Shown here: positions 3,276 to 16,636 of the stretch, one piece after another
Layout: each line of letters starts with the position of its first letter
Numbering within the stretch: the stretch's first letter is position 1
Position numbers and translations under genes: made by a program
Assembly: GCF_014695385.1 (NCBI RefSeq)
Contig: NZ_JACJOD010000031.1
Coordinates: 310,001 to 374,000 of the forward strand
Source: Trichocoleus sp. FACHB-46
Lineage (GTDB): Bacteria; Cyanobacteriota; Cyanobacteriia; FACHB-46
Direction of reading: 5' to 3'
DNA: 64,000 nucleotides
The notes under the pieces: generated by a model
Database searches by the model: none
The model's input: the letters and a program-made list of their open reading frames with translations, nothing else
Told to the model about the DNA's origin: nothing

Positions 3276-4634
3276 ATGAGCCCGTTTGATCGTTCGGTTT
3301 CGCGTCGCAAGTTTCTGATCACGGCTGGAGCCTCTGCGGTGGGCTCTATATTTCTCCACGGCTGTTTAGGAAATCCTCCCGATTCACTTACTAGGTCTCA
3401 AGCCGTACAACCTGTCTCAGCAGCTAACTTGAGCCCAGAGCAAAGGCCAGAAACCACCACGATCAAGCTGGGTTACATCCCTATTATCGAGTCTGCTCCG
3501 CTGATCATTGCCAAAGAAAAAGGCTTTTTTGCGAGGCATGGCATGAGTGATGTGGTGCTTGATAAGCAGTCTTCTTGGGGCACCATGCGAGACAACACAG
3601 AAACGGGCTTCGAAGGTGGCGGCGTGCATGGAGGGCAATATCAAATGCCAATGCCTCACCTGATCTCAGAAGGAATCATCACGAAGGGCAACAAAAAAAT
3701 CCCGATGTACAACCTATTGCAACTCGTTACACATGGCAATGGGATTGCGATCGCGAATAAGTATCGGGAAGCTGGGTTTGCTTTAAATGCGAGTCAGGCA
3801 AAAGGGGTGATCAGCAAAGAGAAATCTCTAGGAGCCCAGTTTGTGGCGGCGCACACTTTCCCCCATGTGAACCAAGACTTCTGGATTCGTTACTGGTTCG
3901 CCGCAGGCGGGATTGATCCAGATAATGACATCAGCCTGCTACCAGTTCCCTCAGCCCAAACGGTTTCCAACATGAAGACTGGCACAATGGGAGCTTTTAG
4001 CACCGGAGATCCTTGGCCCTACCGGATTGTGGCTGACAAGGTTGGTTATATGGCAGCTTTGACGGCTGAGATGTGGAAGGAGCACCCGGAGGAATATTTA
4101 GCGATTCGGGCTGATTGGGTAGATAAACACCCCAAGGCTACTAGAGCAATTCTTAAAGCCGTGATGGAAGCCCAGCAGTGGTGCGATGACTTCAACAATC
4201 GCCAAGAATTGTCTGAAATCCTAGCCAGTCGGCAATACCTCAATGTGTCCGTCAAAATCCTCCTCGATCCTTTCATGGGCAAAATCGACATGGGCACAGG
4301 TCGCGTAATTGACGACCGCTCAATGGCACCTCTGTATTGGAAAGGCGAGAAAGGAAGCGTTTCTTATCCTTTCAAGAGTCATGAACTCTGGTTCCTCACA
4401 GAGAGCGTGCGTTGGAATTTCCTACCTCCGGATACCTTGGCGAGAGCTAAAACCATCATCGACGCAGTTAACCGAGAAGACTTGTGGCGAGAAGCTGCCA
4501 AGGAATTAGGAGTTGCTGCTGCGGATATCCCTCAAAGTACTTCCCGTGGTGTGGAAACCTTCTTTGATGGCATCAAATTTGACCCGGAAAACCCCAAAGC
4601 TTATCTCGACAGTCTCCAGATTAAACGTGTGTAA
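3276..4634 (+). CDS. cmpA: CmpA, bicarbonate-binding lipoprotein of the BCT1 ABC transporter
   Basis: The 452-residue substrate-binding protein of a high-affinity bicarbonate importer, facing the periplasm. The N-terminus has a twin-arginine motif (SRRKFL, residues 9-14) and a lipobox-like LHGC with Cys30. CmpA and NrtA (nitrate) are close homologues. The discriminating residue is Glu in CmpA and Lys in NrtA in the HPE(E/K) segment; here it is HPEE (Glu273). Trp101, Thr194 and Gln200 fit the positions of known CmpA bicarbonate ligands. [12 protein letters not shown] and FSTGDPWP also match CmpA rather than NrtA. The ATG at 3276 follows AGGAT. It heads cmpABCD. Confidence 0.93.
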
Positions 4635-4693
4635 GTAGACCATTTTAGTTCTGCTCCAAACCCTAAGAAGCAACATCAAGGAGAGTTTTTCAA

Positions 4694-5521
4694 ATGACTA
4701 TCAGCCTCAAAAGCCGCCGTCGTAGCTTTGATCTACTTGGTTCTATTGGTAGCCTATTCAAGGCAGTTAAGTCACCTGCGATCGCGATCGCCGTCTTTTT
4801 AGCGATTTGGCAACTATTTAGCTGGCTGCCTGGGGCCACACTTCCCGGTCCGATTCAGGTGGTGCAAGAGACTTGGATTTTAATTTTGTATCCTTTTTAC
4901 GATCGCGGTGGCACCGATGTTGGTTTGTTCTGGCAGTTATTGGCTAGCTTAAAGCGAGTTGCTGTGGGCTTTACAGCTTCTGCTATCGTTGGCATCGGCC
5001 TCGGTATTTTGATTGGGGTTAATACCGGGATTTACAAATCCCTTGACCCCCTCTTTCAGTTGTTACGCACCATTCCTCCCCTGGCTTGGTTGCCCCTCTC
5101 CCTAGCAGCGTTGCAGAAAAACGAACCTGCGGCTATCTTCGTCATCTTCATTACTTCTATCTGGCCGATTTTGATCAATACATCGGTAGGCGTTCGGCAA
5201 ATCCCTCAAGACTACAACAACGTAGCTAGAGTCTTACAGCTCTCGAAACAGGAATATTTCACCAGCATTCTAATTCCCTCTGCCTTGCCATACATCTTTA
5301 CAGGTCTGAGAATCGGGATTGGTTTATCTTGGTTGGCGATTATTGCGGCAGAGATGTTGGTCGGAGGTGTGGGAATTGGCTTCTTTATCTGGGATTCCTG
5401 GAACGCCAATAAGATCAGCGAAATCATCTTGGCCTTGGTTTACATCGGTGTGGTGGGTCTCTTACTAGATAAAGCAATGGCTTATGTCGAATCATTAATT
5501 GTCCCTGCGGAACAGAAATAG
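4694..5521 (+). CDS. cmpB: CmpB, bicarbonate ABC transporter permease
   Basis: A 275-residue inner-membrane permease of the NrtB/CmpB/SsuC family, forming the transport channel for CmpA cargo as a dimer. About six hydrophobic helices are visible, with the family segment TLPGPIQVVQETW after the first helix and the cytoplasmic EAA-type loop near ARVLQLSKQEYFTSILIPSA. AAGGAGAG lies just before the ATG. It begins 59 bases after cmpA and ends about 115 bases before cmpC, in the canonical order. Confidence 0.93.
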   Translation: MTISLKSRRRSFDLLGSIGSLFKAVKSPAIAIAVFLAIWQLFSWLPGATLPGPIQVVQETWILILYPFYDRGGTDVGLFWQLLASLKRVAVGFTASAIVGIGLGILIGVNTGIYKSLDPLFQLLRTIPPLAWLPLSLAALQKNEPAAIFVIFITSIWPILINTSVGVRQIPQDYNNVARVLQLSKQEYFTSILIPSALPYIFTGLRIGIGLSWLAIIAAEMLVGGVGIGFFIWDSWNANKISEIILALVYIGVVGLLLDKAMAYVESLIVPAEQK

Positions 5522-5637
5522 CGGCGATCGCTCCATCACTCATTGCATTCGCTAGCAGGACTCCACTTACAAACTCACGCCTTTGCCAGTTCAGAGGATA
5601 CAGGCAGGCGTTGTTAACCCTACCTCCGAGATGAATC

Positions 5638-7641
5638 ATGTCTACCTTTGTTGCCGTTGATCAAATTGATAAAGTCTTTCACCTGTCCGGCGGTCAAGAG
5701 TATATTGCGCTGAAAGGCATTGACCTGCAAATCAAAAAAGGAGAATTTGTCTCCCTGATTGGTCACTCCGGATGTGGCAAATCCACGCTCCTGAACATGG
5801 TGGCAGGGCTAGATCTCCCGACAGAAGGCATCGTGACCCTAGAAGGGAAGAAGATCACCCAACCAGGCCCCGATCGCATGGTGGTGTTTCAAAACTATTC
5901 TCTGTTACCCTGGCGAACTGTGCGCGAGAACATTGCCTTGGCGGTGAACGCGGTGATGAAAGATTTATCGGTGAGTGAGCGCCGCTCCATTGTGGAACAG
6001 CACATCGACATGGTGGGATTACGCCCCCACGCCGATAAGCCACCTGCCATGTTATCCGGAGGTCAAAAACAGCGAGTTGCGATCGCCCGTGCCTTGGCAA
6101 TTCGGCCCAAGCTGCTGCTGCTCGACGAACCCTTTGGAGCTTTAGATGCTCTAACTCGTGGCAACTTGCAAGAACAGTTAATGAAAATCTGCGAGGAAAA
6201 CCAAGTCACAGCGATTATGGTGACGCACGATGTGGATGAAGCCGTATTGCTCTCCGATCGGATTGTCATGCTCACCAACGGGCCAGAATCTAAGATTGGG
6301 CAGATTTTAGAGGTGGATATCCCTCGGCCCCGCAAGCGCTTGGAAGTGGTGGAACATCCCAGCTACTACAGCTTACGCAGTGAAATTATTTACTTCCTAA
6401 ACCAACAAAAGCGCATTAAAAAGCTCCGGGCGCGAAAAACTACTGCGATCGCCCGTCACGGCCTAGAAAAAGTCAATTTAGAAATCGGTTTTGTGCCGTT
6501 GACCGCTTGTGCGCCTCTGGCGATCGCCAAAGAAAAAGGATTCTTTGCCAAGCATGGCTTAGATGAAGTCACCCTGGTGCGGGAAACCAGTTGGCGCGGC
6601 ATTGTCGATGGCGTTGCTGGCGGATATTTGGATGCGGCGCAGATGCCCTCTGGAATGCCAATGTGGTTAACGCTGGGAGGACATGAGAACCGCTCGCTAC
6701 CTACAGTCACCTCTCTCACCATGACCCGGAATGGCAACGCCATTACCCTAGCCAAGCGCTTTTATGAGGCAGGCGTGTATAGCCTCTCGGATTTCCGGAA
6801 ATATCTTCAGCGCACCGCTCACCAGCGGCACACAATGGGGATTGTCCATCCCTCTTCAATGCACAACCTGCTGTTGCGGTACTGGTTAGCGGCTGGAGGC
6901 ATTGACCCGGATCAAGATGTCTCTCTCACCACGATTCCACCCGCACAAATGGTGGCAGACCTTCAGGCAGGGACGATTGATGGCTATTGTGTGGGCGAGC
7001 CTTGGAATATGCGTGCTACGGAAGAAGGAGCAGGTTTCGTCATTGCCACGGATCTAGAAATTTGGCTAGGGCATCCAGGAAAAGTGCTGGGCGTGCGGGA
7101 AGAGTGGGCCGCCGCTTACCCCAATACTCATATCGCCTTAGTCAAAGCGTTGCTAGAAGCAGGTCAATATTGTGCTGACCCCGCCAATGCCGCAGAAGTT
7201 CGCGAAATCCTAGCTCGCCGCGAGTATCTCAGCACAGACATGGCCTATATCCAGATTGAGGAGCATGACCCCACTATCTGTGACCTCGATCGGCCCATGC
7301 AAGAGTATGCCCACCATCAGTTTTATGGAGAAGGGGTGATTAACCGCCCCAGTCGCACCGAACAGTTGTGGATTATGACTCAGTTGGCCCGCTGGGGAGA
7401 CACGCCATTTCCGCGTAATTGGGTGGAAATTTTGGAGCGGATCTGTCGAGTTGGAGTCTTCAGCACGGCTGCTCGCGAATTAGGCCTAGAAGTGAACTAC
7501 AACCGCAGCCCAATTCAACTGTTTGATCAGGTGCCATTTAACGCCGATGACCCAATCGCCTATCTCAATCACTTGAAGATCAAACGTGCCTTCAGCGTCG
7601 CAGATGTAGCAGTTCAGGCTTCCACCCGCACAGCTGCCTAG
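5638..7641 (+). CDS. cmpC: CmpC, ATPase fused to a CmpA/NrtA-like solute-binding domain
   Basis: A 667-residue fusion typical of CmpC/NrtC. The N-terminal ABC ATPase has Walker A GHSGCGKST (42-50), signature LSGGQ (139-143), Walker B LLLLDEP (159-165) and H-loop His197. From about residue 278 a cytoplasmic solute-binding domain follows ([34 protein letters not shown]). In NrtC this domain mediates regulation of transport; in CmpC a similar sensory role is assumed. Oddly, the segment equivalent to HPEE in CmpA reads HPGK (Lys482), and VGEPWN is NrtA-like, so this domain may not bind the same ion as CmpA. Confidence 0.93.
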   Translation: MSTFVAVDQIDKVFHLSGGQEYIALKGIDLQIKKGEFVSLIGHSGCGKSTLLNMVAGLDLPTEGIVTLEGKKITQPGPDRMVVFQNYSLLPWRTVRENIALAVNAVMKDLSVSERRSIVEQHIDMVGLRPHADKPPAMLSGGQKQRVAIARALAIRPKLLLLDEPFGALDALTRGNLQEQLMKICEENQVTAIMVTHDVDEAVLLSDRIVMLTNGPESKIGQILEVDIPRPRKRLEVVEHPSYYSLRSEIIYFLNQQKRIKKLRARKTTAIARHGLEKVNLEIGFVPLTACAPLAIAKEKGFFAKHGLDEVTLVRETSWRGIVDGVAGGYLDAAQMPSGMPMWLTLGGHENRSLPTVTSLTMTRNGNAITLAKRFYEAGVYSLSDFRKYLQRTAHQRHTMGIVHPSSMHNLLLRYWLAAGGIDPDQDVSLTTIPPAQMVADLQAGTIDGYCVGEPWNMRATEEGAGFVIATDLEIWLGHPGKVLGVREEWAAAYPNTHIALVKALLEAGQYCADPANAAEVREILARREYLSTDMAYIQIEEHDPTICDLDRPMQEYAHHQFYGEGVINRPSRTEQLWIMTQLARWGDTPFPRNWVEILERICRVGVFSTAARELGLEVNYNRSPIQLFDQVPFNADDPIAYLNHLKIKRAFSVADVAVQASTRTAA

Positions 7642-7724
7642 TATTTTGCCCCCTAGCCCCCCAATCCTGGGGAGCTGAACTTCAGGCTTTTCTCCACCCA
7701 ATCTTAAAAAGTTGAGCTCCACCG

Positions 7725-8591
7725 ATGCACAATCGTCCCCTTGCTTATACAAACTCCGAGACCAGCAGCACCAAACAGCGCAGCTCAGTTGCTACCTCCT
7801 CCGAACCGTTTCTCAGCATTCAAGATGTCGCCAAGATCTACCCAACTGCTAACGGTCCTTATCCCGTTTTGCAAGGCGTGAACTTGACGGTGCAGCAGGG
7901 AGAGTTCATCTGTGTAATTGGTCACTCTGGCTGTGGCAAGTCAACGCTGCTGAACATGATATCTGGGTTTGCCACTCCTACCCGTGGGGAGGTGCGGCTG
8001 CGATCGCAACCCATCACTCAACCCGGACCCGATCGCATGGTCGTGTTTCAGAATTATGCGTTGCTGCCGTGGAAAACCGCGCTGGAAAACGTCTACATTG
8101 CCATTGACGCGGTGCATAAGCAAAAGTCTAAAGCCGAAAAAATGGCGATCGCCCGTGACCACCTCGCCTTGGTAGGGCTGACGGAGGCGGCTGACAAAAA
8201 GCCAACACAACTGTCTGGCGGGATGAAACAACGGGTAGCGATCGCCCGCGCTCTAGCCGTTCGGCCAGAGGTGTTGATTTTGGATGAACCCTTTGGCGCG
8301 TTAGATGCCATCACCAAGGAAGAACTCCAAGAAGAACTGCTCAAAATCTGGAATGACCACCGTTGTACGGTCTTGATGATCACCCACGATATTGATGAAG
8401 CGCTATTCTTAGCGGATCGCTTAGTCATGATGACCAACGGCCCTGCTGCCAATATTGGGGAGATCATGACCATTCCCTTCCCTCGCCCCCGCGATCGCGC
8501 CCGGATTATGGAAGATCCACACTACTACAAGTTACGCAACCAAGCGCTTGACTTTCTCTACCATCGTTTTGCCCATGATGACGTTGGTTGA
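7725..8591 (+). CDS. cmpD: CmpD, bicarbonate ABC transporter ATPase
   Basis: A 288-residue ABC ATPase that pairs with the ATPase half of CmpC to power the transporter. Walker A GHSGCGKST is at 66-74, signature LSGGM at 163-167, Walker B LILDEP at 184-189 and H-loop His221. The family QPGPDRMVVFQNY segment is shared with CmpC. An N-terminal extension of about 25 residues rich in Ser/Thr suggests the start may lie further in, but no clearly better start was found. It is the last canonical gene of cmpABCD, 83 bases after cmpC. Confidence 0.93.
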   Translation: MHNRPLAYTNSETSSTKQRSSVATSSEPFLSIQDVAKIYPTANGPYPVLQGVNLTVQQGEFICVIGHSGCGKSTLLNMISGFATPTRGEVRLRSQPITQPGPDRMVVFQNYALLPWKTALENVYIAIDAVHKQKSKAEKMAIARDHLALVGLTEAADKKPTQLSGGMKQRVAIARALAVRPEVLILDEPFGALDAITKEELQEELLKIWNDHRCTVLMITHDIDEALFLADRLVMMTNGPAANIGEIMTIPFPRPRDRARIMEDPHYYKLRNQALDFLYHRFAHDDVG

Positions 8592-10504: not shown

Positions 10505-12337
10505 ATGAGCCAGCTTCTCTTGGAGAGCATCTGGTTGATTCCTTGCTATGCCTTAGTGGGCACGGTACTGGCGATTCCTTGGTCACCAGGCTTGCTAGAC
10601 CGCGTCGGTCCACGGCCCGCAGGCTATCTCAACCTACTAATGACCACTTTGGCGTTTGGCCACAGTCTGTTGGCCCTTTGGTCGATCGGACAACAAGCGC
10701 CTCAACAAATCTTTTTCCCTTGGCTACATGCCGCAGGTTTGCAAATTGATCTTGCATTCTTGGTATCCCCGGTGACTCTTAGCGCGATCGCCGTCGTCAC
10801 TGGGCTGAACTTACTCACCCAACTCTTTGCGATCGGCTATCTAGAGATGGACTGGGGTTGGGCTCGCTTTTTTGCCCTGATGGGCTTTTTTGAAGCGGGG
10901 GTATGCAGTCTAGCTCTCTGTAACTCTTTGTTTTTTAGTTACGTTTTTCTAGAACTGCTAACCCTGGCAACCTACCTTTTAGTCGGATTTTGGTTCGCAC
11001 AGCCATTGGTCATGACTGGAGCCAGAGATGCCTTCTGGACGAAGCGAGTCGGCGATTTGATCCTCTTTATGGGCGTAATCGCACTTTTCCCTTTAGCAGG
11101 CACCTGGAATTTTACAGAGCTAGGAGAATGGGCTGCAACTGCCAATCTTTCTCCCTTAAGCGCGACACTACTAGGCTTGGCGCTGATTTCAGGCCCACTA
11201 GGTAAATGTGCCCAATTTCCCTTTCAATTGTGGCTAGATGAAGCGATGGAAGCGCCAATCCCCGCTTCAATTTTGCGGAACTCAGTGGTAGTCGGGGCAG
11301 GGGCTTATGTGCTAATCAAACTACAACCTGTTTTAGCCCTCTCTCCCGTGGCTTTGACGGCTTTGGTAGTGTTCGGGACTGCGACAGCTCTAGGAGCTTC
11401 GTTAATCGCGATCGCCCAGATTGACATCAAGCGGGCGCTGTCTTACTTGGTTAGCGCTTACATGGGCTTGGTGTTTATTGCAGTGGGCACTCAACACCCA
11501 GAGGCAGCTCAGTTACTGCTGTTAACTCAGTCCTGTTCATTCGCCCTGTTGTTTATGGCCGCAGGAGCGGTGATTTGGACCACGATTAGCCAAGACTTAA
11601 CTCAGCTAGGCGGTTTGTGGTCTCGGCGACCCATCTCCGGTTTAGCTTTGCTAGTCGGTGGCGGTGGGTTGATTGCGCTCCCTCCATTCGGCGGTTTTTG
11701 GGGATTGTTGCAGCTAGCCGATTCTCTATGGACAACCCGACCCTGGTTAGTGGGTGTGTTGTTAATCGTGAATGGGCTGACGACCTTCAGTTTGATGCGC
11801 GTCTTTGGCCTAACGTTTGGTGGCCAGCCAACCCCAATGACCGAGCGATCGCCAGAGGTAAGTTGGCCAATGGCTTTACCCATGACTGTGCTGACTGTCT
11901 TCACCTTGCTGCTGCCTTTGGTGTTAGAGCAATTTAATCTATTACCAAACTGGGCAGACCTGAACAAACAACTAGCTCCGTTGATCGTTTGGTCAAGTGT
12001 TTTGGGCGGTAGTTTAGGTGGCGCAATTTATCTCGGCAACGCGTTACCCAAGCCTGTCAAGTTGTTTTGGCAACCCCTGCAAGAGTTCTTTGCCCACGAC
12101 TTTTACATTCAGCGGCTCTACCAACTGACCATCGTGAGCTTGGTGAATTACAGCGCTCGGTTAACCGCTTGGTTCGATCGCCATGTGGTCGATGGTGCGG
12201 TGAACGCCGTGGGTTTTGTGACTTTGTTTAGTGGCCAAGCGTTGCGATATACCGCATCTGGTCAGTCGCAGTTATATGTTCTGTTGGTGGTTTTTAGTTT
12301 GATTGCGATCGGATTTCTAGTCAGTTGGTCTTTCTAG
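10505..12337 (+). CDS. ndhF: NdhF3, NDH-1MS membrane subunit for CO2 uptake
   Basis: A 610-residue multi-span proton-translocating subunit of the NDH-1 complex specialised for low-CO2-inducible CO2 hydration at the thylakoid membrane. It shows the antiporter-like architecture, with conserved Glu150 in FLELLTLATY, GKCAQFPFQLWLDEAMEAP near 233-251, and a terminal long-helix/anchor region. The match to F3 rather than F1 is judged from the linked ndhD3-cupA-cupS genes and the divergent AMEAPIPASILRNS segment. The start at 10505 has a weak AGG upstream. A carbonic anhydrase gene follows after 59 bases. Confidence 0.92.
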   Translation: MSQLLLESIWLIPCYALVGTVLAIPWSPGLLDRVGPRPAGYLNLLMTTLAFGHSLLALWSIGQQAPQQIFFPWLHAAGLQIDLAFLVSPVTLSAIAVVTGLNLLTQLFAIGYLEMDWGWARFFALMGFFEAGVCSLALCNSLFFSYVFLELLTLATYLLVGFWFAQPLVMTGARDAFWTKRVGDLILFMGVIALFPLAGTWNFTELGEWAATANLSPLSATLLGLALISGPLGKCAQFPFQLWLDEAMEAPIPASILRNSVVVGAGAYVLIKLQPVLALSPVALTALVVFGTATALGASLIAIAQIDIKRALSYLVSAYMGLVFIAVGTQHPEAAQLLLLTQSCSFALLFMAAGAVIWTTISQDLTQLGGLWSRRPISGLALLVGGGGLIALPPFGGFWGLLQLADSLWTTRPWLVGVLLIVNGLTTFSLMRVFGLTFGGQPTPMTERSPEVSWPMALPMTVLTVFTLLLPLVLEQFNLLPNWADLNKQLAPLIVWSSVLGGSLGGAIYLGNALPKPVKLFWQPLQEFFAHDFYIQRLYQLTIVSLVNYSARLTAWFDRHVVDGAVNAVGFVTLFSGQALRYTASGQSQLYVLLVVFSLIAIGFLVSWSF

Positions 12338-12396: not shown

Positions 12397-13143
12397 ATGG
12401 CTCAGCAGCAATCACAGTTTTCTCGCCGCAACATGTTGAAGTTTGGAGCAGGTGCTTTAGGCAGTGGTGCGATCGCCGTGGGCTTAGGTGCTAAGTCGCA
12501 AGCAAAGGAGCCAGCAGTTGCCAAACCAGCCGCTCAACCCGCCGCTGCCAAGCCCAAAGTTGACAAAAAGGACCTCACTCCCGACCAAGCGCTGAAACTA
12601 TTAATGGATGGCAACAAGCGCTTTGTTACCCGCAAACTGGAAAAGCCTCGTCAAGATTGGGCCAGGATCCAGGAAGTTGCTAAAGGCCAAAATCCCTTTG
12701 CTGCTGTTCTAAGCTGTGCAGATTCACGCATCCCTTCTGAGATTGTTTTTGATCAGGGATTTGGCGATTTATTTGTCTGCCGCGTTGCAGGTAATGTCGC
12801 AACTCCTGAAGAGATTGGCAGTTTGGAATTTGGGGCGGCGGTGCTCGGAACCAAAGTAATTATGGTAATCGGTCACGAACGATGTGGAGCTGTAGAAGCC
12901 ACAATGAAGGGTGCCCAGGTGCCAGGACAAATTGGCAGCTTGATCGATGCGATTAAACCTGCTCTAAGTCGCTCCAACAAGTTTACAGGTGATCCGCTGG
13001 CAAAGTCAGTGAAGGCCAATGTGTCACTGCAAGTTAGCAAGCTTAAAGCCTCCACAGTACTAGCCGATCTGATCGCATCAGGCCAACTGAAAGTGGTGGG
13101 CGCTTACTACGACTTAGATGCTGGAACGATCACGCTCGTTTAA
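12397..13143 (+). CDS. Beta-class carbonic anhydrase with twin-arginine signal (EcaB-like)
   Basis: A 248-residue zinc enzyme interconverting CO2 and bicarbonate. Catalytic residues are intact: Cys107 and the Asp109/Arg111 dyad in SCADSR, and His160 and Cys163 in GHERCGAVEA. The N-terminus carries a Tat motif (FSRRNMLKF, Arg10-Arg11) and a hydrophobic stretch, then an Ala/Pro/Lys-rich linker up to about residue 58, so export to the periplasm or thylakoid lumen is predicted. AGGA precedes the ATG. It lies between ndhF3 and ndhD3 with gaps of 59 and 30 bases, which is not the textbook layout and implies work with the NDH-1MS complex. Confidence 0.92.
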   Translation: MAQQQSQFSRRNMLKFGAGALGSGAIAVGLGAKSQAKEPAVAKPAAQPAAAKPKVDKKDLTPDQALKLLMDGNKRFVTRKLEKPRQDWARIQEVAKGQNPFAAVLSCADSRIPSEIVFDQGFGDLFVCRVAGNVATPEEIGSLEFGAAVLGTKVIMVIGHERCGAVEATMKGAQVPGQIGSLIDAIKPALSRSNKFTGDPLAKSVKANVSLQVSKLKASTVLADLIASGQLKVVGAYYDLDAGTITLV

Positions 13144-13173
13144 TTGATTCATCTTGCTGGAGTAAATCGCGTC

Positions 13174-14688
13174 ATGCTCAGTACAATCATTTGGCTGCCT
13201 GTGTTGGGCGCTGCTTTAATCGGATTTTGGCCGCAAACCTGGAGCCCGCAGCGATCGCGTCTTGTGGCTTGGGCGATCGCGGGTCTGACTTTCCTCGTTA
13301 CGGTGTTCTTAGCGCTCAAGTTCGACTTTCAAGCATCAGGTCTGCAATTTCAAGAACATATTAGTTGGATTGCTCCGCTGGGCTTAGATTATCGGCTCGG
13401 AGTTGATGGCTTGTCACTGCCGTTGGTAGTGATGAATGGATTGTTGATCTGGATCGCGATCCAAAGTACACCGGAGCAAGTGTCCCGCCCTCGGCTGTTT
13501 TATTCGCTGATCTTCCTACTCAGTGCAGCGGTGGCAGGAGCCTTCCTCGCTCAGAACTTGCTGTTATTCTTCTTGTTCTATGAGATAGAGCTGATTCCCA
13601 TCTATTTACTCATCGTGATTTGGGGTGGCGATCGCCGAGGCTATGCAGCAACCAAGTTTCTGATCTACCAAGCGCTGTCTGGAATTGTCTTGCTGGTTGG
13701 ATTCTTAGCTTGGGCTTGGGCGAGTGGCTCCAGCACCTTTACGGTGGAAGTGGAAGCGCTGGCTTCTACCTTACCGATGGGACTGCAACTCATATTGCTC
13801 TCGATTTTAATCTTGGGCTTTGGCATCAAAATGCCGCTGGTGCCGTTCCATACTTGGCTACCGGATGCCTATGTCGAAGCTTCCACGCCTGTTTCAATTT
13901 TGTTAGGTGGCATTGTTTCCAAACTGGGCACTTATGGCTTGATCCGCTTCGGCCTCAGCTTGTTTCCGGATGCCTGGAATGTGGTGGCACCTTGGCTGGC
14001 TAACGCTGCGGTCGTCACCGCTCTGTATGGAGCTTTAGTCGCGATCGCGCAAACCGACATGAAGAAGATGATCGCCTACAGCTCGGTCTCCCACCTCAGC
14101 TATGTTTTGCTGGCCAGTGCGGCTGCTACGGAACTGAGCCTCTTGGGTGCGGTCTGCCAGATGGTGGCTCACGGCTTAATCTTGGCGCTCCTGTTCTATC
14201 TAGTGGGTGTGATTGAGGCCAAGACGGGCAGCCGCGAGTTAACCCAACTGCAAGGATTGTTGAACCCCAAGCGGGGATTGCCACTGATCAGTGGAGCCTT
14301 AATCTTGGGGACAATGGCAAGTGCTGGAATTCCTGGAATGGTCGGATTTGTTGGTGAGTTTCTCAGCTTCCAAGGCAGCTACAGTAGGTTTTCGGCGCAA
14401 ACGCTGCTCTGCTTAGCCAGTACGGGGCTGACCTCAGTTTATTTTGTGATTTTGATTAACCGAGCTTTGTTTGGTCGTTTAGAAGGCAAACTCAGCTACC
14501 TGCCTAAAGTCACTTGGGAAGAAAAAATTCCAGCGATCGCCCTAGTCGCGTTAATTGTTCTATTAGGGGTACAACCAAATGCCCTAGTGCGCTGGAGCCA
14601 AAACACCACCAGTTCCCTCGTGGCAATGGTGGCTGAACACAGTCCCCAGCAAGTCGCCCTCACCCCTCCATCCGCTCAATCCGATTAG
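13174..14688 (+). CDS. ndhD: NdhD3, NDH-1MS membrane subunit
   Basis: A 504-residue multi-span proton-pumping subunit (NuoM/NdhD family) of the inducible CO2-uptake NDH-1 complex. The quinone-oxidoreductase signature is clear: LFFLFYEIELIPIYLLI with the conserved Glu, and GIKMPLVPFHTWLPDAYVEA. I chose ATG 13174, preceded by GGAG at 13159-13162; a TTG directly after the carbonic anhydrase stop would add ten residues that do not look like the family's N-terminus. It is followed by cupA after 112 bases. Confidence 0.93.
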   Translation: MLSTIIWLPVLGAALIGFWPQTWSPQRSRLVAWAIAGLTFLVTVFLALKFDFQASGLQFQEHISWIAPLGLDYRLGVDGLSLPLVVMNGLLIWIAIQSTPEQVSRPRLFYSLIFLLSAAVAGAFLAQNLLLFFLFYEIELIPIYLLIVIWGGDRRGYAATKFLIYQALSGIVLLVGFLAWAWASGSSTFTVEVEALASTLPMGLQLILLSILILGFGIKMPLVPFHTWLPDAYVEASTPVSILLGGIVSKLGTYGLIRFGLSLFPDAWNVVAPWLANAAVVTALYGALVAIAQTDMKKMIAYSSVSHLSYVLLASAAATELSLLGAVCQMVAHGLILALLFYLVGVIEAKTGSRELTQLQGLLNPKRGLPLISGALILGTMASAGIPGMVGFVGEFLSFQGSYSRFSAQTLLCLASTGLTSVYFVILINRALFGRLEGKLSYLPKVTWEEKIPAIALVALIVLLGVQPNALVRWSQNTTSSLVAMVAEHSPQQVALTPPSAQSD

Positions 14689-14800: not shown

Positions 14801-16087
14801 ATGACAACTGCAACCGCAACCAAACTGCCTCCTTCTAACCATGAATTCGCCGACGTGATTCATCGGCTAGAAGCGGGTGGTGCCATGCTGCCTGATACGC
14901 CAGAAAACCTGATGCAAATTATCGGTATCTACAAAGCCTACGCAGTGCCGATGGATTTCTACTGGCGCGATCTCCTTTACATTGCCGAGCGCGTCTTCCT
15001 CAATCCCTTGCCCTTTTTCAAATACTTCCTACCTCAAGAATATTTAGACCTGCACAACCACTACGCCGGAGATGACGCCGATTTGCGGATTTGGCGAGGG
15101 GAAGCAACCGCCCATCCAGAACTCCTAGCATTCATGCAGAAGGGCGAAACTACCCAGATGCCCAAGTTGTTCCATCACCTGTTGCACGATCGCGTCAACA
15201 TGGAGTTTGCCGAAGCTTGTATGCGAGCGATGCTGTGGCATCGGGGCATGGGTGGCAAATTTGACCCCTATCTCGACACTCCCGAATATAAAGCCGCCGC
15301 CGATCGCGCCATCAAGGCTTACTTCAAGGGCAATCCCGCCATGCTGGGCCTCTACAAGCTGTTCCCAGAAATGTTTATTGAGCAGGTGCGGCAGTTGTCT
15401 TACTACGCCAACCTAGGGTTGTTCTGGGAAGTGATGGCTCCGGTGTTCTTTGAGATGAGCGATCGCTACGATTGCGGCGAAATCACTAGCGTCCCAGAAG
15501 CAATGAATTTCTTGGTGAATGGTATCTTTGCAGTCGCAGGCCGCCCCATCTACCATCATGTCTATATTGACGGAGAGTGCTACGAAATCATCCCTAAATC
15601 CTGTGGTTTTACCTGGCTGTACGAAGCCGCGCTCCCTTATGTGGAAGCTGTGTTTTACCGCACCGCCCCCTTCCGAGGCACCAAGTCCTACAACGCTCAA
15701 GCTGAGCAAGTGCCAGCCGAGCAAAAAGATTTCCACTACGGTATTCTTTACGCCGATGTGAATCCAGTAGGGACGGCAGGGATTCCCCCCACATTACTGA
15801 TGCAGGATATGTTGCACTTTCTGCCGCCTTACTTGGTGGATTATTACCAGAAGCATTGCCGAGGCGAAGATGACATGCTGATCCAGCTAGGGGTGAGCTT
15901 CCAGCGATCGATGTATTGTGTCACCTCAGCGGTGATTCAAGCGCTACGGACAGCGTTGCTTTATCCCTTAGATGATCAAAATCCGAAGCATTTGCAAGCC
16001 AACCGAGATTTCTTTGAAGCCCAGATCGATCGCTTTAAGCGTCCAGAAGCTCGGTTGCGGGATGTTCAGGCTCAGTCTTATCGCTAA
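14801..16087 (+). CDS. cupA: CupA (ChpY), CO2 hydration protein of NDH-1MS
   Basis: A 428-residue cytoplasm-facing subunit that docks on NdhF3/NdhD3 and couples CO2 hydration to bicarbonate with proton pumping. The family is Cyanobacteria-specific. Visible hallmarks include YKAYAVPMDFYWRDLLYIAE near the N-terminus, LHNHYAGDDADLRIWRGEA, and the His/Glu-rich LFHHLLHDRVNMEFAEACM region that may include metal ligands. AAAGGAG lies 8-12 bases before the ATG. Linkage to ndhD3 identifies it as CupA rather than the constitutive CupB. Confidence 0.95.
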   Translation: MTTATATKLPPSNHEFADVIHRLEAGGAMLPDTPENLMQIIGIYKAYAVPMDFYWRDLLYIAERVFLNPLPFFKYFLPQEYLDLHNHYAGDDADLRIWRGEATAHPELLAFMQKGETTQMPKLFHHLLHDRVNMEFAEACMRAMLWHRGMGGKFDPYLDTPEYKAAADRAIKAYFKGNPAMLGLYKLFPEMFIEQVRQLSYYANLGLFWEVMAPVFFEMSDRYDCGEITSVPEAMNFLVNGIFAVAGRPIYHHVYIDGECYEIIPKSCGFTWLYEAALPYVEAVFYRTAPFRGTKSYNAQAEQVPAEQKDFHYGILYADVNPVGTAGIPPTLLMQDMLHFLPPYLVDYYQKHCRGEDDMLIQLGVSFQRSMYCVTSAVIQALRTALLYPLDDQNPKHLQANRDFFEAQIDRFKRPEARLRDVQAQSYR

Positions 16088-16234: not shown

Positions 16235-16636
16235 ATGGCAGACATTGTTGATATTGCAGTAGGTGCAGGCTCCTTTAATACGTTGGTGGCAGCAGTACAA
16301 GCGGCTGGTCTCGTTGAAACGCTTAAAAGCCCAGGACCGTTTACCGTTTTTGCGCCGAATGATGCCGCCTTCGCCAAGCTCCCTCCTGGAACCATCCACA
16401 CGCTGTTGCAAAATATCCCGCAGCTGGCGCGAATCCTGACTTATCATGTCGTGTCGGGGAAATGGACTCAAGCTGACTTGGCTAAGGTAGACTCTCTGAC
16501 TTCGGTAGAAGGTTCACCGATTCGCCTTGATCTATCCGATGGATTTGAAGTCAAAAACGCCACGGTGGTTGCTCCCGACATCGAAGCCGATAATGGCATT
16601 ATTCACGTCATTGACAATGTGATTCTGATGGGCTGA
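16235..16636 (+). CDS. cupS: CupS, fasciclin-domain subunit of NDH-1MS
   Basis: A 133-residue single fasciclin (FAS1) domain protein without signal peptide, matching the small cytosolic-side subunit of the NDH-1MS complex. The FAS1 H1 and H2 regions are visible: [19 protein letters not shown] near residues 34-52 and [14 protein letters not shown] at the C-terminus, with the YHV motif between. It follows cupA after 147 bases that contain a hairpin repeat, and closes the operon. No clear ribosome-binding site is seen before the ATG. Confidence 0.92.

Follow-up and report, generated by a model that had tools for sequence, protein, structure and literature searches.

Organization of the NDH-1MS locus

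The window analysed, a 64,000-nucleotide stretch of the Trichocoleus sp. FACHB-46 genome, contains five genes on one strand in the order ndhF3, CA (carbonic anhydrase), ndhD3, cupA and a gene in the cupS position. The first of these, ndhF3 (10505..12337, + strand), encodes the distal antiporter-like subunit of NDH-1MS; it matches the TIGR01960 profile with 928 bits (cut-off 589) and is the top-scoring NdhF locus of the genome. The CA gene (12397..13143, +) begins with ATG and encodes a 248-residue exported-type beta-carbonic anhydrase assigned to the operon EcaB clade described below. A gap of 59 bp separates the ndhF3 stop codon from the CA start, and 30 bp separate the CA stop codon from the ATG of ndhD3 (13174..14688, +), which encodes an antiporter-like subunit of NDH-1MS (TIGR01972, 521 bits, cut-off 264). 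The ndhD3 start at ATG 13174, preceded by GGAG, was chosen from the sequence and from congeners over the mechanically assigned TTG at 13144. The operon continues with cupA (also chpY; 14801..16087, +), encoding the CO2-hydration subunit (TIGR01964, 778 bits, cut-off 294; PF10216), and ends with a gene for a fasciclin-domain protein (16235..16636, +; PF02469), homologues of which also lie 3' of cupA at other loci. All four genes of the textbook NDH-1MS (NDH-1(3)) operon, ndhF3-ndhD3-cupA-cupS, are thus present in the same order, whereas the exported-type CA gene between the first two is an addition to it.

The first-pass annotation had placed a complete Tat-type beta-CA between ndhF3 and ndhD3 with short gaps, and the open reading frame, the profile matches, the active-site residues and the 59 and 30 bp spacings agree with that description. 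Its wording that the gene is in frame with the operon carries no meaning beyond location on the same strand, and its suggestion of a genetic fusion of CA and NDH functions does not hold, the CA being a separate ORF with its own start and stop. A CA-NDH fusion protein is ruled out by the separate ORFs, stops and starts.

The position of the CA gene and its short gaps suggest that it is co-transcribed with its neighbours and that the enzyme is made together with NdhF3, NdhD3, CupA and CupS. Promoter, terminator and RNA-fold scans returned nothing above shuffled sequences, the promoter scans performing at chance level, and a search for the RbcR motif gave chance numbers only, with no match upstream of ndhF3. 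Expression of ecaB in Microcystis was reported to be unchanged with CO2, as was that of most NDH-1MS genes there (PMC4419860). Approximately 1.9 kb 5' of ndhF3 lies a cmpABCD-type bicarbonate ABC transporter operon (3276..8591, +; ORFs 3276-4634, 4694-5521, 5638-7641 and 7725-8591), identified from its ORFs and from cmpB/cmpC similarity to another locus, with PsiE- and DUF6671-family genes in between.

The CA protein matches the Pro_CA family (PF00484) with 132.1 bits in a profile search (cut-off 25.7), and it is one of four beta-CAs encoded in the genome. Both by sequence and by fold, its best solved relative is Rv3588c of Mycobacterium tuberculosis (2a5v, 1ym3; E value of 1e-31 for the sequence). 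The AlphaFold model matches the Rv3588c fold with an E value of 5e-16 and confirms a beta-CA fold, although at a modest mean pLDDT of 66 it is too weak for interface claims. The two proteins share their Zn ligands and 34-36% sequence identity, but Rv3588c has neither a Tat signal nor an NDH context. Against the NCBI subfamily NF011765 (carbonic anhydrase family protein) the score of 170.9 bits falls below the curated cut-off of 221. In the alignment, the motif C107-A-D109-S-R111 (12715..12729, +) supplies the predicted first Zn ligand and the Asp-Arg dyad, and H160-E-R-C163 (12874..12885, +) the other two Zn ligands. These five residues (C107, D109, R111, H160 and C163) and the R10-R11 pair are unchanged in all 46 CAs of the operon clade, which is set apart from other Tat CAs by E139, F145, G146, K153 and Y237. 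By these criteria the operon protein is a beta-class carbonic anhydrase with a complete predicted active site.

The N-terminal sequence SRRNMLKFG is consistent with a Tat motif, and the genome has a gene for TatC. The putative Tat signal peptide (12397..12504, +) includes S9-R10-R11-N-M-L-K, a possible cleavage site after S-Q-A36, and no lipobox cysteine. The signal region contains no cysteine at all, unlike the lipoprotein attachment site reported for EcaB. Because such a cysteine occurs in only one of the 46 clade members (locus L035) and is missing from the Synechocystis copies tested, this feature does not define the clade. The predicted Tat motif does not tell lumen from periplasm.

Distribution and descent of the ndhF3-CA-ndhD3 order

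A genome search for the ndhF3-CA-ndhD3 order had been proposed beforehand. Searches with the CA and with NdhF3 covered 386 genomes across the phylum, and the coordinates of the hits were compared. A CA match within 6 kb of NdhF3 was found in 37 of the 110 genomes having an NdhF3 top hit, and in 33 of the 110 an intact CA gene lies directly between ndhF3 and ndhD3. The remaining four comprise two truncated remnants in that position (genomes G289 and G195), an intact copy immediately upstream, on the same strand (G231) and a divergently oriented CA of another clade (G074). Intact operon CAs occur in seven GTDB-type families (f1, f6, f7, f8, f11, f28 and f29), relatives of Nostoc and Microcystis included, and the named loci include Oscillatoria, Nostoc, Scytonema, Brasilonema, Pantanalinema, Microcoleus and Microcystis. 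The same order recurs in two congeners of Trichocoleus sp. FACHB-46, whose CAs are 88-89% identical. A unique insertion or a chance neighbour is ruled out by the 33 genomes across the phylum together with these two congeners. In the same search, none of the 41 lower-scoring NdhF (NdhF4-type) loci had a CA within 8 kb, which excludes the CA as a general feature of NDH-1 CO2 complexes. Two loci of the survey deserve separate mention. Genome G157 (L282) carries two tandem CAs between ndhF3 and ndhD3, the second one diverged. A MAG labelled Candidatus Gracilibacteria (L043) bears a cyanobacterial ndhF3-CA-ndhD3-cupA contig that was probably misbinned.

In a maximum-likelihood tree built from 67 CAs (support given as bootstrap / SH-aLRT), every operon copy groups with the upstream copy of G231 and with five relocated copies in a single clade (96/91). 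The sister of this clade is a Leptolyngbya-type exported CA, and the other cyanobacterial Tat CAs fall outside. Across the 33 genomes, CA and NdhF3 tree distances are correlated with a Mantel r of 0.71, a value not reached in any of 2000 permutations. Mapping the CA state onto the NdhF3 tree requires at least 21 changes, and well supported branches make at least 15 of these unavoidable. The ndhF3-ndhD3 gaps of genomes without an intact CA were screened by profile search, and CA remnants were recovered in L182/G195, L183/G289, L228/G070, L194/G185, L227/G328 and L129/G074, with a tail in L234/G103; the losses therefore occurred from the same site, where at least six genomes beyond those with the complete gene retain it in a decaying form. 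The ndhF3-CA-ndhD3 order is ancient and recurrent, with one origin and many losses, and the earlier view of the CA as a special insertion in the window genome is to be abandoned. Repeated horizontal gain of the CA alone is disfavoured by the one clade, the one site and the NdhF3 correlation; block replacement by recombination between relatives may have taken place. In G074 (L129:3998-8704) only 56 codons of the operon CA remain; ~0.6 kb 5' of ndhF3, in divergent orientation, lies a CA of the other Tat clade, a possible replacement.

The loss record bears on the notion that the gene is a passenger, a once-useful CA retained through chance and because of polar constraints on the translation of ndhD3. 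The 21 changes on the NdhF3 tree attest to frequent loss, as this notion would have it. Of the six internal-deletion remnants, four retain the reading frame through to the original stop codon ahead of ndhD3; with an expectation of 1/3 this is not significant (P ~0.10) and is suggestive only of translational coupling with ndhD3. However, a passenger would decay, whereas the active-site residues and the RR pair are invariant in all full-length copies, and relocated copies have been kept intact. We regard retention as a passenger as very improbable.

Relation to EcaB and to other Ci-uptake operons

The only external CA gene reported for Synechocystis sp. PCC 6803 is ecaB, whose product contains a twin-arginine motif, and EcaB is described as located mainly in thylakoids, tied to NDH-1(3)/(4) function, catalytically active and interacting with CupA/B (PMC11360081, PMC10096703). 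Earlier work held it to be inactive and periplasmic, as cited in PMC9865033. EcaB (Slr0051) resembles the operon CA in being a beta-CA with a Tat-type signal. The comparison of the operon CA with EcaB-type proteins suggested in the first-pass annotation bears out the link between them: the relocated copies of Synechocystis G014 and of PCC 7338 (G076) nest inside the operon clade (96/91). Their genes lie away from ndhF3, whereas in the window the gene lies between ndhF3 and ndhD3. Because these EcaB-type copies nest within the operon clade, EcaB itself, as judged from its PCC 7338 and G014 relatives, most likely descends from an operon CA that was relocated. Two of the relocated clade members come from genus g6, which includes PCC 7338. 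PCC 7338 has one Tat-type CA hit and an ndhF3-ndhD3-cupA-cupS operon devoid of a CA gene, and its congener G080 (genus g6) still has ndhF3-CA-ndhD3. The textbook operon of Synechocystis looks like a derived, CA-less state. The association of EcaB with NDH-1MS is already known; the present data suggest that the CA has moved away or disappeared in Synechocystis and in the species from which the NDH-1MS structure was solved, making both of them reduced cases. In Synechocystis G014 (L120:530-4705) the EcaB-type gene is located directly upstream of sbtA-sbtB-Na+/H+ antiporter on the same strand.

Exported-type CAs also occur in other Ci-uptake operons. The second Tat beta-CA of the window genome (G000:C28, L153:2598-4738) is the third gene of a tight Sbt_1-P-II-CA cluster, and the order sbtA2-sbtB2-CA was found at all 20 loci examined in the clade to which this CA belongs, the sister of the operon clade; the label sbtA2 for these Sbt_1 genes rests on family and on the P-II neighbour. 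Like the operon CA, this is an exported-type enzyme in a Ci-uptake operon, but it belongs to a separate sister clade, is ~49% identical and is partnered with an Sbt_1 bicarbonate transporter and a P-II protein. The pairing of SbtA2 with SbtB2 was known previously (PMC13249358). Five genomes from two families of another order (L293:478-3580; L298-L302) have a Tat beta-CA between cmpB and cmpC of the BCT1 operon.

These clusters keep alive the main rival to a role at NDH-1MS, namely that the operon CA acts in the periplasm as a low-CO2 enzyme, shares the operon for regulation only, converts leaked or outside CO2 to HCO3- for BCT1 or SbtA and never touches the complex. Besides the sister clade and other copies in bicarbonate-transporter operons (sbt and cmp clusters), it is consistent with a Tat signal devoid of any thylakoid-specific feature, with the EcaB-type copy upstream of sbtA, with the cmpABCD genes just 5' of the operon in the window and with the recovery of EcaB from the periplasm by proteomics, as cited in PMC9865033. 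Nonetheless, the operon clade stays between two membrane-subunit genes in seven families and tracks the NdhF3 tree, and EcaB is reported to be mainly thylakoidal and to bind CupA/B (PMC10096703, PMC11360081). A purely periplasmic function is, in our judgement, unlikely, yet it is the alternative that carries the most weight.

Proposed role at NDH-1MS

Our preferred explanation, to which we give somewhat better than an even chance, is that the gene encodes the EcaB-type CA of the ancestral NDH-1MS operon, co-expressed with it at low CO2, and that the enzyme is lumenal (or periplasmic) and equilibrates HCO3- and CO2 at the mouth of the NdhF3 tunnel. A non-polar CO2 tunnel in NdhF3, leading from the lumenal side to CupA, was proposed from cryo-EM and MD (PMC6981117). 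The enzyme, produced along with the other operon subunits, would reach the lumenal face of the thylakoid through Tat, with a part of it perhaps going to the periplasm, as its signal and the EcaB reports suggest. It would then act on the trans side of NDH-1MS, at the mouth of the proposed hydrophobic tunnel, and hold HCO3- and CO2 in equilibrium there. Under illumination, when the lumen is acidic, net conversion at this site would run from HCO3- + H+ to CO2. CupA, on the side facing the cytoplasm, would hydrate this CO2 again as NDH-1MS pumps protons. Approximately two thirds of the NdhF3 genomes have no operon CA, so the enzyme is dispensable for the complex, which counts against this explanation. 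The solved NDH-1MS structure contains no CA subunit, and its source species seems to be without EcaB.

Instead of supplying CO2, the enzyme could serve to regulate the complex, one example being the removal of surplus HCO3- in high light. Reviews of EcaB ascribe to it a role in redox balancing and the conversion of CO2 to HCO3- under high light or high pH (PMC9283085, PMC10096703). However, the signal carried by every clade member would direct the enzyme to the side opposite CupA, and no sequence feature favours regulation; we consider this reading improbable.

Recent papers describe the role of EcaB-type external CAs as unknown, and opinions differ on whether the CO2 used by NDH-1MS comes from the cytoplasm or the lumen. 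Genetic evidence for a partner on the trans side is provided by a CA that bears an export signal, has its gene between those of the two distal membrane subunits and is co-inherited with NdhF3. No report of the ndhF3-CA-ndhD3 gene order was found in the literature searched, Sandrini 2014 having fallen outside its reach, nor was one found there of the conserved operon, its history or the family of exported CAs in Ci operons, that literature leaving out Rourke 2026. With public genomes having displayed this order for years, priority is uncertain.

Beyond the preferred reading of an enzyme equilibrating HCO3- and CO2 at the NdhF3 tunnel, a broader proposal can be offered tentatively, with somewhat less than even confidence: each Ci-uptake system may be paired on its trans side with a dedicated exported beta-CA, in the form of an NDH-1MS clade, an SbtA2 clade and a BCT1 (cmpB-CA-cmpC) clade. 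In the case of NDH-1MS, a lumenal partner would deliver CO2 to the NdhF3 tunnel, and the lumen rather than the cytoplasm would be the source from which the complex draws CO2. A functional analogue can be proposed in CAH3 of the Chlamydomonas thylakoid lumen, described in PMC10814762 as a CA of the lumen that converts HCO3- to CO2, although CAH3 is an alpha-class enzyme of an unrelated family without a tie to complex I. The operon-bearing species, in which the gene still resides in the operon, provide clean test strains.
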